This document shows positions 16,508-29,900 of a stretch of 34,715 bases of DNA, piece by piece. Under the pieces are notes generated by a model, which was not told the origin of the DNA, did not search any database, and saw only the letters and a list, made by a program, of their open reading frames with translations. Source of the DNA: Bacteroidales bacterium (GTDB taxonomy: Bacteria > Bacteroidota > Bacteroidia > Bacteroidales > P3); NCBI GenBank assembly GCA_009777915.1, contig WRKV01000008.1, positions 1 to 34,715 on the forward strand. Direction: 5' to 3'. Numbering within the stretch: the stretch's first letter is position 1; each line of letters opens with the position of its first letter. The position numbers were made by a program, and so were the translations under genes.

Positions 16508-16545
16508 ATACTGACAAAAAAAGTTAAGGAAAAATTACCCTAAAA

Positions 16546-16576
16546 TTGTTTTATTCAAAAAAAAGTTGTATCTTTG
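16546..16576 (+). promoter_or_regulatory. Promoter TTG-N20-TATCTTTG upstream of the small lipoprotein
   Basis: TTGTTTTATTCAAAAAAAAGTTGTATCTTTG. Confidence 0.7.
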
Positions 16577-16618: not shown

Positions 16619-16900
16619 ATGAAAAAATTATTTGCAATCCTTCCGTTGGCAGCCATTATGTTTGCTTGCGGTAGCCCTGCGGCTCAACCCGAAGTTGTAG
16701 AGCCTGAAACCGAAATCGTTGAAGAAGTTGAGGAAGTAGTTCCGGCACCAGCCCCTGCTAAATCTACTCCGCAAACGACTGCGAAACCTGAAACGCCTAA
16801 AGAACCGGAAGCCGAAAACGTTCGTACGGAAGAGGCTGTTGAGGTTGAAGCCGAAGCACAAGTAGAAGGTGCCGGAGCAGCACGAAGGAGATCGAGATAA
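16619..16900 (+). CDS. Small Pro/Glu/Val/Ala-rich lipoprotein (93 aa)
   Basis: Lipobox LAAIMFACGSPA then EVVEPETEIVEEVEEVVPAPAPAK low-complexity sequence; own promoter and terminator. Confidence 0.8.
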   Translation: MKKLFAILPLAAIMFACGSPAAQPEVVEPETEIVEEVEEVVPAPAPAKSTPQTTAKPETPKEPEAENVRTEEAVEVEAEAQVEGAGAARRRSR

Positions 16901-16920
16901 GTTTGCTTACTCAAACCAAA

Positions 16921-16944
16921 AACTCGCATCGAATGATGCGAGTT
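16921..16944 (+). terminator. Rho-independent terminator
   Basis: AACTCGCATC-gaat-GATGCGAGTT followed by T-run. Confidence 0.88.
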
Positions 16945-16973
16945 TTTTTTATTATGCTTTTTAATTTTCGCCT

Positions 16974-18853: not shown

Positions 18854-18988
18854 AGTGTTGTATTTTTTGTTTTATCATACAAAATTACGAAAAAAAAACG
18901 TTGGTTATTGATATTTTCGGAAAAGTTATTAACATTCAGACATTAAAAAATGATCCATATTAAAAAATTGTCAAATCTCTCAAAAAAA

Positions 18989-19019
18989 TTGGTCAGTCCA
19001 AAAAATTGTTGTAACTTTG
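18989..19019 (+). promoter_or_regulatory. Promoter TTG-N20-TAACTTTG for the B12 riboswitch/btuB transcript
   Basis: TTGGTCAGTCCAAAAAATTGTTGTAACTTTG. Confidence 0.75.
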
Positions 19020-19025
19020 CACCGC

Positions 19026-19190
19026 GTTTGTAGCACAACTTGTTGTGCGAAGGAATCAGGTGAAAATCCTGGACAGTCCCGCTGCTGTAAGCCGTGAAAA
19101 CACAAGCGTTTGGCAAGAGCCACTGTGAAAATTGATCATGGGAAGGCGTCAAACGAACGGTAAGTCAGAAGACCTGCAATCGCAGCAGTT
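19026..19190 (+). promoter_or_regulatory. Cobalamin (AdoCbl) riboswitch
   Basis: Conserved core: ggtgaaaatCCtggacaGtCCCGCTgCTGTaagcc ... GAGCCACTG ... tgGGAAGGcgtc ... GTCAGAAGACCTGC. Confidence 0.95.
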
Positions 19191-19216
19191 AAATGCTTTC
19201 GTGGATTGAAGCTACA

Positions 19217-24371: not shown

Positions 24372-26507
24372 TTATTCGTCGTCTTTTTGTTCTGCTTCGT
24401 ATGCTTTCAACAGTGCGGTTTGAACATCTGCCGGCACTTGGGTGTATTCGGCAAATTTCATGCCGTACGAACCACGTCCGGAAGTGATCGAGCTCAATGC
24501 TGTTGAATAACGATTCATTTCTGCCAACGGCACTTTTGCTTTGATGATTTGGAAACCGCCATCGCTATCCATACCCATTACAACGGCTCTACGCCCTTGC
24601 AGGTCAGTCATTACATCGCCCATTCTGTCGGCAGGAACCATCACTTCTACATCGTAAATCGGCTCCAAAATTTTTGGACCGGCATTCTTAAAACCTTCAC
24701 GGAACGCATTACGTCCCGCTAGTTTGAATGCCATCTCATTCGAGTCAACGTCGTGCATTTTTCCGTCGTAGATATTCACAACGATGTCGCGTGCGTAGGA
24801 ACCGGTCAATGGACCTTCTTCCATTTTTTCCATGATACCTTTGAGAATTGCCGGCTGGAAACGTGCGTCAATCGCACCACCCACGATACAATTATTGAAC
24901 ACCAATTTTCCGCCCCACGACAAATCGTGTGTTTCTGTTCCGCGAATCGGATATTTGGTTTGGTTTGCCATGCCGTCGTAATAAGGTTCGATAAGCATGT
25001 GCACTTCGCCGAATTGACCGGCACCGCCCGATTGTTTTTTGTGGCGATACATGGCTTCTGCGTTTTTCGTAATCGTTTCGCGATACGGAATTTTTGGTGC
25101 AAATAAATCAACTTGCAATTTATGTAAATTGTTCAAATACCATTTCACGGTGTTGATGTGAAACTCTCCCATGCCCTGTAAAATCAACTGTTTCAGCTCA
25201 CGTGAGTAACCAACCAAAAGAGTTGGATCGGCAGCACTCATCGTGTTCAAAAGCATACCAAGTTTTTCGTCGTCAGATGAATTTACGGCTTTGATTGCTG
25301 TTGAAAAAATCGGTTCGGGGAAAGTAATTTTCTCAAAAACGATATTTGTATTTTTCGGAGATGTCAGGGTTTGGTTGGTTTTTACATCTTTCAATTTAAT
25401 CGTTGCGATGATATCTCCGGCAACCGCTTTTTCGATTTTTGCACGGTTTTTTCCGGCAACGGCAAACATCTGTGAAATACGCTCTTTCCCGCCGTTTACG
25501 GAGTTTACGACGTCCATACTTTCCGTAACTTCACCTGTAACGATTTTCATGTACGACATTTCTCCCAAGTGTTGTTCGAGAGAGGATTTGAAAATAAATG
25601 CCGAAAACGGTTCAGCGGCATTAACTGCGATATCCTTATCATCAGTGGTTTTGCGAGCTTTTCCTTCGTTCGGAGCAATTACGTTATTTCCGATAAATTC
25701 GAGCAAACGTGCCACACCTTGTGCTTCTTTTCCAACAACACACATCACAGGAAACATTCCGCGCGAAGCCATACAAAGTTTGATACCGCGACGCATTTCG
25801 TCGATCGTTAAATCTTCGGTTTCAAAGTATTTTTCCATCAAATCATCGGCACCTGCAGCGGAGGCTTCCACCAAATGTTTGCGATATTTTTCGGCACGAT
25901 CTTTTTCCGCATCCGGAATATCTACGGTTTCGAATTTTCCACCGCCTTTCGGGAATTTTAACATTTTGTTCAATACCAAGTCGATTACTGCATCGAAGCC
26001 GGAGCCAACGTTTACAGGATATTGACACACCGTGATATTATCGCTGTAATTTTCTTGCAATTGTTTCAAAGCATCTTCGAAATTAGCTTTTTCGCCATCA
26101 AGTTGATTGATGACAAACATTGCCGGAACACTACCTTTTTTAGTGTATCGCCAAGCGAGGTCGGTTCCTGCTTCTGCACCTGCTTGTGCATTCACGACTA
26201 TCGCAGCTGCTTCCACAATGCTTAGAGCAGACACCATTTCGCCTGCATAATCAGCCATGCCCGGGCAGTCGATGATATTAATTTTTTTACCGCTGTATTC
26301 TGCGTAAAGCAACGATGCTACTACAGAATTTTTACGGTCGAGTTCGATTTCGCGATAGTCGGAAATAGTGTTTTTGTCGTCAATTGTTCCTCGACGACTA
26401 ACGACCCCGCCTTCGAATGCCATTGCTTCAGCCAAAGTAGTTTTTCCCGACTTTGCACCTCCAATCAGAGCAATGTTTCTGATTTCATTTGTTTGATAGA
26501 CTTTCAT
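24372..26507 (-). CDS. Elongation factor G paralogue (EF-G2-like, altered GTPase motifs)
   Basis: EF-G domain organisation; start set at MKVYQTNEIRNIALIGG (26507) because the track start (26651) lies upstream of the -7 box at 26620-26627. Confidence 0.92.
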   Translation of the reverse strand: MKVYQTNEIRNIALIGGAKSGKTTLAEAMAFEGGVVSRRGTIDDKNTISDYREIELDRKNSVVASLLYAEYSGKKINIIDCPGMADYAGEMVSALSIVEAAAIVVNAQAGAEAGTDLAWRYTKKGSVPAMFVINQLDGEKANFEDALKQLQENYSDNITVCQYPVNVGSGFDAVIDLVLNKMLKFPKGGGKFETVDIPDAEKDRAEKYRKHLVEASAAGADDLMEKYFETEDLTIDEMRRGIKLCMASRGMFPVMCVVGKEAQGVARLLEFIGNNVIAPNEGKARKTTDDKDIAVNAAEPFSAFIFKSSLEQHLGEMSYMKIVTGEVTESMDVVNSVNGGKERISQMFAVAGKNRAKIEKAVAGDIIATIKLKDVKTNQTLTSPKNTNIVFEKITFPEPIFSTAIKAVNSSDDEKLGMLLNTMSAADPTLLVGYSRELKQLILQGMGEFHINTVKWYLNNLHKLQVDLFAPKIPYRETITKNAEAMYRHKKQSGGAGQFGEVHMLIEPYYDGMANQTKYPIRGTETHDLSWGGKLVFNNCIVGGAIDARFQPAILKGIMEKMEEGPLTGSYARDIVVNIYDGKMHDVDSNEMAFKLAGRNAFREGFKNAGPKILEPIYDVEVMVPADRMGDVMTDLQGRRAVVMGMDSDGGFQIIKAKVPLAEMNRYSTALSSITSGRGSYGMKFAEYTQVPADVQTALLKAYEAEQKDDE

Positions 26508-26619
26508 AATATTAATGTTTGTTTGTTTTTGTTTTTGCAGGTTGTAGGACGTGGTTTTGACTTCGTTGAGATTGCGATTCGCACTTCGGTTGAAACCACC
26601 CTTACAATAATTAACGGTG

Positions 26620-26627
26620 CAAAGATA
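26620..26627 (-). promoter_or_regulatory. -7 box TATCTTTG for the EF-G paralogue
   Basis: caaagata on the plus strand, upstream of the ATG at 26507. Confidence 0.55.
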
Positions 26628-26667
26628 CAAAAAAAATTGAAATAAATTCATTTTTTTTACAAAAAAC

Positions 26668-26698
26668 TTGTATAATTCAAAAAAGTATTGTACCTTTG
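26668..26698 (+). promoter_or_regulatory. Promoter TTG-N20-TACCTTTG for the 1582-aa secreted protein transcript
   Basis: TTGTATAATTCAAAAAAGTATTGTACCTTTG. Confidence 0.7.
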
Positions 26699-26730
26699 TG
26701 GCGTTATACCCTTACAAAAATTTTTGCTCG

Positions 26731-26829
26731 ATGAAATACGGAAGTGGTTTTTATTTTATTTGCTCTCGCGTTACCTCGAAACGCTTGTGCTCCTCTTTGT
26801 ATCAAGAGCTTAAAAAACCACCTACTTAA
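26731..26829 (+). CDS. Candidate upstream leader ORF (32 aa: MKYGSGFYFICSRVTSKRLCSSLYQELKKPPT, stops TAA TAG)
   Basis: ATG-initiated ORF ~30 nt after the predicted -7 box, inside a structured leader. Confidence 0.35.
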   Translation: MKYGSGFYFICSRVTSKRLCSSLYQELKKPPT

Positions 26830-26898
26830 TAGAGCGTTTCGGAACAACGCATCATTAGCGTTTCAAGTTTTTTAGTCGCACGCATGGAGAGATCTCTC
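26744..26898 (+). ncRNA. Structured 5' leader with interleaved complementary segments and a 12-nt palindrome
   Basis: A 26744-26752 GTGGTTTTT pairs A' 26813-26821 AAAAACCAC; B 26777-26785 CGAAACGCT pairs B' 26833-26841 AGCGTTTCG; second B'-like copy AGCGTTTC 26857-26864; hairpin CTCTT/AAGAG 26793-26808; GAGAGATCTCTC 26887-26898. Confidence 0.5.
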
Positions 26899-26954
26899 TA
26901 TCCTTGTTTGGGCGATTTACCATTTACAAATTCTAATTTCTAATTTCCAATCTT

Positions 26955-29900
26955 ATGAAACAAGCAATCAAAACAACAATCTTATTCGTTTCACTTTTCT
27001 TTTGTGGAGCGAGTTATGCACAAGGGCATTTAAATGCCAAACGTGCCCCGCAAAATTTGCAAAAGCACCCTATGGCGGGCATACAAAACCCGGCACCCAA
27101 AGGTCTGACTTCTCCAATGATTTACGCTACCGAATGGGGCGACGACGATCCGGGAATTTACAAAACAACCTTAGGGAATGCTACGGACGTAACCAAACTT
27201 ACCGATGTGGGTAATGCAGACTACCAAGCCATGCAATGGGTCGGCATGAACGACAACATTTATGTGGTTACTTATCAGGAAGTCGACGAAGGTGCAGGTG
27301 TTGTACCGAAAAACACTTTCGGCACGATCGACCCCGTCACGGGAGATCTCACCGTTATAGCAGAAGTCGACTGGGACGGCATTTCGCTGGCATGGCACTC
27401 GGGAACAAGCACCATGTATGCAACGACATGGTACGGTCAGTTCGGAACGGTAAACCTGACCACAGGAGCCTTTACCACAATAACGACATGGACAACGGGA
27501 CCCGCTTTCATCACCATTGACAACAGCGGCGTTTGCTTTATACAGGAATACGATTTTCCGGGTGGCAACAGATTTGGTACTCTGAATCTCGCTACAGGAG
27601 CCATTACCACTATCGCAACACGTCAATACGTGCGTTACCTGCAAAATCTTACCGTAGATTATGAAACCGACGAATTGTACTGGGCAGGCACCATGACGGA
27701 CGGACAAGAAGGCATATACTTCCTCGCCAGAATTGATAAGGCGACCGGAATGTTTCTTAGTGATGATGATTTTGTACCTATAAACCACCGAATCCAGTCG
27801 CTCTGTATCATCGGCGAGATAAATGCCGCTGCTCCATCAGCTCCAACGAATGTAGCACTTGTAAGAAACGGTGTAACCGCCGAACTCTCGTGGACGGCTC
27901 CAACAACAAGCCTGAACGGCGATCCACTCTCCGGTGAAGGACTTCTGTACGATGTTTTCCGTATGCCGGAAAACATTCGGGTAGCAACCGATCAGGCAAC
28001 AACCACCTTTAGCGAAATCATCACTGCACAGGGTATCTTCTCCTATCGCGTGGCTGCAAAGAATGCTGCGGGCACAGGTGGTTCCGCCACTTCAAACGCC
28101 GAAACGTTTTGTCCGGCTATAATGACAGACCATTGGGTAGAAGGATTCAATAATGTGTTGCAATTCCCGCCGCATTGCTGGACAACGTGGAGAAGTCCGG
28201 GAACGAGCGAAAACGGAGAATGGGGCCTAAGTGAGATGGCACCCCGATGGGATGGAGCCTATGCCATTCGAAGAATGGTGATGGGAAGCAATCAAGAATC
28301 TTGGTTGATTACGCCACCCATAACCTTAGATGAAAACGAAACCTATCGTCTTAAATTCATGTCTTTCACGAACGATGAGTCGTATTATGTAGGTGGACTG
28401 AACGCAACTATAGGCAACGGTCTCAGCAAAGTGTTTATATCTACAAAGAGCAACAACCGTACGGATTTTACCGAACTACTCCATACTTTGGAGTATGGAG
28501 TTGATGTGCTGTCACCACCCGCCTGGAGCGAAGTTGTGCTTGATTTGGGCAAATTCAAAGGCGAAACCATCTACATTGGTTTCCAATATACCGGTAATTT
28601 TGCTCATGCTTGGCATTTGGACGATGTGCAGGTATACTCCGTATTTGATGATATTGCCGTGTTAGATATCACAACGCCGAAAAATGGGATAAACATTAAC
28701 CTTTCCGACAATCAGGATGTAACCGTAAGACTAAAAAGTTTCGGTGAGGGGTCGGCAACCGGCTTTACGCTAACCCTCTTGCTTGATGACGTGGTACAAG
28801 CAACCGAAACCTACACCGGTTCTATCGCAAGTTTGGCGGAAGCCAACTACACGTTCACCAAAAAACTGAATCTTTTGGCAGATGCCACCTATCGCATACA
28901 GGTTATTGCCAACTTAATCAGCGATCAAAATCCTACCAACGATACGGCGACGATAACCGTTATCAATACGGTTTGTCCGGTGGTTACAACCTTTCCTTTC
29001 GTTGAATATTTCAACGAAGCACTGTTCCCGCCAAGATGCTGGACGATTTGGAACAGTCCGGAAACGCCCTCCAACGGATTATGGAAAAGGGGCATGCAAT
29101 TGGAATTTGGCGATGAAGGTCCGGCGTGGGACGGATCGTATGCTGTGCGTATGGATGCACTCGGAGACAATCAGGAATCTTGGTTGATTATGCCGGCAAT
29201 AGATTTGGCTGCAGGCGGCGAACATCTGCTCAAATTCATGTCCTATACAGGCTATACCTTTGGTTATACCGGACATCCGCTCGACGCTGGTGACGGTCTC
29301 AGCAAAGTGTTTGTATCCAAAGCAGGCAACGACCCCGGCAATCCGGCTAATTTTACCGAAGTTTACACCTTGCAATTTGGAACCGATGTGCCACAATCAC
29401 CGGCTTGGCGCGAGATAGACGTTGATTTGAGTGCCTTTGCCGGCGAAACCGTTTATATCGGATTCCAGTATACCGGAAGTTTCGCCCACATCTGGCGTAT
29501 TGATGATGTGAAAGTCTATGATCAAGGTGATTTTGTGGATGCGGAATTGGTAACCATTATTACGCCAAACACAAGCACCAATCTAACCGAAGAAGAAGTG
29601 GTGAAAGTTTTGATAAAAAATGGTGGAGTCGATGCACTAAGCGGATTTCATGTGAAATTGGAAGTGAACGGCATCGAAGTTGCCGACGAACTGTTTGACG
29701 GAAGTATCGCAGGTTTGGATAGAGCCACGTATACTTTTACACACAAATTAGACCTTTCCGAAGCCAACACCTATACGCTCAAAGCAACGGTTGTTGTAGC
29801 AGGAGACATGTACCCCGCCAACGATTCGGAAACCAAAATCGTGATCAACAAAGGATGTCCTTATATCACCGACTATCCTTGGAGAGGGGATCTTGGAAAT

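Follow-up and report, generated by a model that had tools for sequence, protein, structure and literature searches.

Does the region in front of the gene for a secreted 1582-aa protein in this Bacteroidales genome hold a regulatory RNA? The initial annotation had proposed a new cis-regulatory RNA or a leader-peptide attenuator controlling a T9SS cargo, on the grounds of pairing arms in the crossing order A-B-A'-B' beneath a short upstream ORF (uORF). We analysed the window, that is the whole stretch of 34,715 nucleotides (34.7 kb), together with the fetched 1.4 Mb of the host genome (189 contigs, 2.33 Mb in total) and sequences of its relatives.

Genomic context of the cargo gene

The 1582-aa product carries a signal peptide, choice-of-anchor J / Cleaved_Adhesin and CARDB domains and, at its C-terminus, a T9SS sorting domain scoring slightly below the curated cut-off. 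Its divergent neighbour encodes elongation factor G2 (EF-G2), whose homologues begin at residue 49 of the longest ORF, thus placing the gene start at 26507 and leaving an intergenic region of about 450 bp. Each of the four other species of the genus (loci L063-L066, compared with window positions 26508-26700) has tRNA-Asn as the gene divergent from EF-G2, and the tRNA-Asn of the host lies on contig C120 (G000:C120:2895-2969), behind a different cargo gene. Because a cargo gene stands here where four sister species have tRNA-Asn, the locus must have been rearranged in the host lineage, and the T9SS cargo gene is most likely lineage-specific, occupying the place of the sister species' tRNA-Asn.

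Table 1. Features of the window and of the RNA family found elsewhere in the host genome
Feature	Position	Strand	Remark
Promoter	TTG 26668-26670; -7 element 26691-26698	+	20-nt spacer with AATTCAAAAAA; -7 element TACCTTTG; matrix score 30.3
Predicted untranslated leader, ~252 nt	26703-26954	+	from promoter-to-start-codon distance; predicted transcription start
Candidate uORF, 32 codons + TAA	26731-26829	+	peptide MKYGSGFYFICSRVTSKRLCSSLYQELKKPPT; followed by TAG 26830-26832
Arm A GTGGTTTTT	26744-26752	+	5' strand of crossing helix A:A'
Main hairpin (predicted)	26768-26850	+	GCGTT/AACGC (5 bp), 3x3 internal loop, B:B' (9 bp + G-U); -21.5 kcal/mol
Arm B CGAAACGCT	26777-26785	+	checked on sequence
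CTCTT / AAGAG	26793 / 26804	+	checked on sequence
Arm A' AAAAACCAC	26813-26821	+	3' strand of A:A'
Arm B' AGCGTTTCG	26833-26841	+	checked on sequence
Weak terminator-like hairpin AACGC/GCGTT	26846-26862	+	then TCAAGTTTTTT; 5 nt before U6
Second B partner (B2) AGCGTTTC	26857-26864	+	checked on sequence
Extended B2 AGCGTTTCAAG	26857-26867	+	abuts TTTTTT 26868-26873; signature scan
Palindrome GAGAGATCTCTC	26887-26898	+	checked on sequence
Cargo gene, 1582 aa	26955-31703	+	directly 3' of leader
EF-G2, divergent neighbour	24372-26507	-	start set by homology
Family copy	L245:3300-3439	-	host genome, outside window
Family copy	L249:17288-17431	+	host genome, outside window
Family copy	L237:10480-10619	-	host genome, outside window
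Family copy	L262:14868-15013	+	host genome, outside window
Family copy	L218:8609-8750	+	host genome, outside window
Family copy	L189:831-999	+	host genome, outside window
Family copy	L186:843-1010	+	host genome, outside window
Family copy	L188:1149-1318	+	host genome, outside window
Family relatives	L191-L195		five other genomes

A strong promoter and a long predicted leader

The Bacteroidota sigma-A consensus has the -7 box TAnnTTTG (PMC9723704), and the TTG-N20-TACCTTTG arrangement at 26668-26698 agrees with it. This site scores 30.3 with a matrix built from host-genome promoters, some of which were themselves found by similarity to it (a mild circularity); real promoters in the window score at least 18 and everything else at most 9.7. 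The next-best promoter-like site within the leader reaches only -4.1, so that a transcription start near 26954, which the initial annotation had named as evidence against its own proposal, is unlikely. A candidate promoter nearer the start codon (TATCCTTG, 26899-26906) was rejected at a matrix score of -9.7. With so strong a Bacteroidales promoter upstream, a leader of about 252 nt is credible, and we consider it probably real.

Sites resembling this promoter precede many genes of the host genome, where we also observed an extended promoter consensus, TTTGG-N3-AATTCAAAAAAA...TTGTAnCTTTG, common to tRNA and protein genes and present at window positions 26666-26698. The site can be aligned with the tRNA-Asn promoters of the sister species; descent from them is unproven, since the identical extended consensus stands at many host genes. 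We further noted that an AT-rich stretch resembling ATTTACCATTTACAAATT, upstream of the start codon (26915-26945), recurs at no fewer than seven other places in the genome.

The predicted leader is long by local standards: the median over 372 predicted host-genome leaders is 26 nt. Published values, which resemble this median, are 24 nt for Flavobacterium psychrophilum and 32 nt for Bacteroides thetaiotaomicron (PMC9723704). Leaders of the cargo genes of the host and its sister species mostly measure 30-80 nt and lack the element seen here.

Pairing arms and predicted fold

The arms A, B, A', B' and B2, the CTCTT/AAGAG pair, the palindrome and the uORF are all present where they had been described (Table 1), except that B' starts directly after the second stop codon and not, as had been stated, one base after that stop begins. 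The extended B2 pairs with CTCGAAACGCT at 26775-26785 with one mismatch. The A-B-A'-B' crossing with its 9-bp helices is real and rare. Among 3000 dinucleotide shuffles of the 252-nt leader, a 9-bp interleaved pair arose once within a span of 100 nt or less and nine times at any span, and the crossing is the sole case in the window. With at least six G/C letters required, 9-bp crossings occur in 2 of the 508 promoter-defined leaders in the fetched 1.4 Mb of host genome, the second being a member of the RNA family described below. Four other 9-bp crossings were found in 364 kb of fetched loci, so that a handful would be expected across the whole genome. Two further non-family leaders with 8-bp crossings were discounted, as their crossings lie inside coding sequence.

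Folding predictions point to a single nested hairpin. In the ensemble the pair probability is about 0.83 for B:B', about 0.13 for A:A' and 0 for B:B2; the second B partner is present in the sequence, as the proposal of an alternative fold had it, but the fold itself is unpopulated in this prediction. Overall stability is no better than that of shuffles (z of -0.2 for 26668-26970 and -0.8 for 26703-26954, about -0.5 overall). The local hairpin reached a z of -3.5, a value equalled or exceeded by 63 of 2886 windows of the same sequence, and only -2.5 when recomputed in the 2886-window scan. For the pseudoknot, the energies were -44.8 with the A strands left free and -8.8 for the A duplex alone, against -48.2 for the best nested fold; once the usual pseudoknot penalty is applied, the crossing fold and the best nested fold come out about equal.

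Search for relatives of the window leader

The window leader has no other copy in the host genome. No homologue was found by DNA search in 41 relatives, by a single-sequence covariance model in 190 family genomes, in plasmids or phages, or upstream of cargo paralogues (40 regions), and GTDB and viral contigs gave no pattern match. Neither covariation nor recurrence in relatives was therefore observed, the first outcome that the initial annotation had listed as counting against it, and without homologues a covariation test across orthologous leaders is impossible. No known Rfam family matches the leader, in agreement with the earlier remark that no standard riboswitch core was recognised in it. 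At gathering threshold the Rfam scan of the window returned only a cobalamin riboswitch and one tRNA, and relaxed thresholds gave nothing relevant in the leader region. In this it differs from the cis-regulatory RNAs of Bacteroidota that Rfam lists, such as Flavo-1, with which it shares the layout of a structured leader behind a TAnnTTTG promoter.

Two other elements of the window were observed. The cobalamin riboswitch (19011-19195, + strand, 86.9 bits) lies directly before a 680-aa ORF and has its promoter at 18987-19019. A small lipoprotein-like ORF at 16619-16900 on the + strand (MKKLFAILPLAAIMFACGSPAAQPEV..., about 93 aa, below the 100-aa limit of the ORF list) is flanked by a promoter of its own (16544-16576) and by a terminator (near 16920-16950).

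On balance, we favor the view that the window leader is an orphan, species-specific 5' leader ahead of a lineage-specific T9SS cargo gene, and that this leader adopts a single hairpin and lets transcription pass. Transcription from the 26668-26698 promoter would yield the leader of about 252 nt, which would fold co-transcriptionally into a single long hairpin, with GCGTT/AACGC extending B:B'. With B sequestered there, together with the 5' arm of the weak hairpin that is tailed by U6, transcription would read through into the cargo gene; the A:A' and B:B2 crossing pairings would be minor alternatives, the uORF incidental and the leader presumably without regulation. The absence of homologues, the unremarkable folding energies with B:B' dominant, the properties of the uORF and terminator, the tRNA-Asn found next to EF-G2 in the sister species and the short leaders of other cargo genes all argue for this view. 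Against it stand the rarity of the 9-bp crossing, whose topology is that of a functional family, and the observation that long host leaders are seldom empty: 20 of the 43 in fetched host sequence carry a copy of the family described below, and the others for the most part contain tRNAs, small ORFs or the cobalamin riboswitch.

A multi-copy family of leader RNAs in the host genome

When other cargo leaders were compared, that of the C58 gene matched three other places in the host genome at 85-89%. These define a first subtype of RNAs of about 170 nt that lie directly behind promoters, end in TGTACGC-U7-AU and show compensatory changes; a model of it (R2) recovered a fifth host copy as well as relatives from five further genomes. 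The second subtype, which has more copies, was detected via structure; the model built on it (R3) yields 31 loci at E <0.001 in the 1.4 Mb of host genome and also scores the copies from the five other genomes. Together, the two subtypes amount to about 36 copies in the host genome, of 140-180 nt each, nearly all of them 22-100 nt before genes that start like exported proteins or lipoproteins.

The family is characterised by a UUCUUG start, helices P1, P2 and P4, an ACCU junction and a U7-8 tract, after which comes AU (A or G). In an alignment of 34 rows, one of which is the antisense of a true copy, 42 of the 48 pairs show double changes; 95.3% of the family alignment's cells pair, compared with at most 42% when the partners are slid. 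Crossing these helices is a conserved additional pairing, in which the terminal arm that abuts the U tract complements an internal arm usually 62-80 nt upstream. Terminal and internal arms match at a mean of 7.0, against 4.1 for shuffled arms, over 16 different arm sequences. The family has no match in Rfam 15, the library with which it was compared; further catalogues of candidate RNAs exist (e.g. PMC8040213). We conclude that it is a well-supported, strongly covarying leader RNA absent from Rfam 15. In one of the other genomes, a sub-threshold match to DUF805 RNA (RF03081, 35.4 bits, E 0.0035; L193:1686-1749) sits between a new-family copy and the next ORF.

Possible relation of the window leader to the family

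The window leader could be a diverged or rearranged member of this family, switching termination ahead of an exported-protein gene. A:A' would then be the outer helix, and B, the 3' strand of an internal hairpin, would cross it to reach a U-tailed terminal arm. The order of elements is indeed that of the family: A, then B on the 3' side of the GCGTT/AACGC hairpin, then A', then B2 abutting U6. The context fits as well, since for the family a promoter would be expected at most about 120 nt upstream and an exported-protein ORF about 20-100 nt downstream: here the promoter ends 46 nt before A, and a signal-peptide ORF begins 81 nt past the U tract. The leader also obtained the joint top score in a signature scan with nine promoter-linked hits against 1.4 expected, but the signature was defined after the window leader had been seen. 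It likewise speaks for kinship that the one further leader found to have a 9-bp crossing is a family member.

Despite the shared strong promoter, long leader, exported-protein gene and outer helix crossing an internal/terminal-arm pairing, neither R2 nor R3 matched the window leader at a family-like score, even with filters off. It has a single outer helix and U6 followed by AG, and lacks the UUCUUG start, P2, P4, the ACCU junction and the U7-8 tract with AU (A or G). From B to the end of B' the distance is 65 nt, within the family spacing of 62-80, but B' has no U tract; the crossing to B2 and the U6 tract is present at a spacing of 93, measured from where the internal arm begins. Were the leader a member, its original terminal arm would have been parted from the U tract by a 24-base repeat of that arm (B', B2). 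Weighing these points, we do not assign the leader to the family, and regard it as unlikely, if worth entertaining, that it belongs in diverged form to an undescribed multi-copy class that would control exported and T9SS-secreted proteins by pairing an internal arm, across the outer helices, with a U-tailed terminal arm.

Proposed leader-peptide attenuation and possible DNA operators

Leader-peptide transcription attenuators of the amino-acid operon type have been reported in Flavobacterium psychrophilum (PMC9723704), and the window leader resembles such systems in that a short ORF overlies alternative pairings in front of a coding gene. The uORF covers A, B and A', and B' follows immediately on its stops, from which the initial annotation had reasoned that ribosome position on the 32 codons would select A:A' or B:B'. 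The analysis lends this no support. A search of 41 genomes gave no homologue of the uORF peptide (best relative E about 0.035), which also has no Pfam match and no regulatory codon run, and an ATG ORF as long turns up in 15% of shuffles. A ribosome standing at the stop would occlude A' as well as B'. One terminator-like hairpin, at 26846-26862 and with UCAAGUUUUUU behind it, was seen against an expectation of 0.1; its stem reaches -3.9 kcal/mol, compared with -15.6 or stronger for terminators in the window, and its 5' arm is also part of the main hairpin. The window leader differs from known attenuators in its weak terminator, in lacking a regulatory codon run and conservation, and in preceding a secreted cargo gene and not a biosynthetic operon. 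There is no positive evidence for leader-peptide attenuation here, and we hold it to be very improbable.

That the GCGTT-N7-AACGC dyads (26768-26784 and 26834-26850) are DNA operators downstream of the promoter, and not RNA helices, is very unlikely: two of the six dyads in the genome do sit in the window leader, but one is the inverted copy of the other, so that they do not count as separate cases, and the genome count equals that of a control pattern (6 vs 6), for which reason an operator regulon was rejected.

Discussion

Our analysis separates a striking single-sequence pattern into a credible part, consisting of the promoter, the long leader and one hairpin, and an unsupported part, attenuation by the uORF. 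What stands of the proposed cis-regulatory RNA or attenuator is the probable leader and the rare crossing topology, for which no conservation in relatives and no support from the uORF were found. The family search that the window leader prompted matters more than the leader itself, as the multi-copy family would be a new candidate regulator, acting at the RNA level, of the surface and secreted proteins of Bacteroidales.
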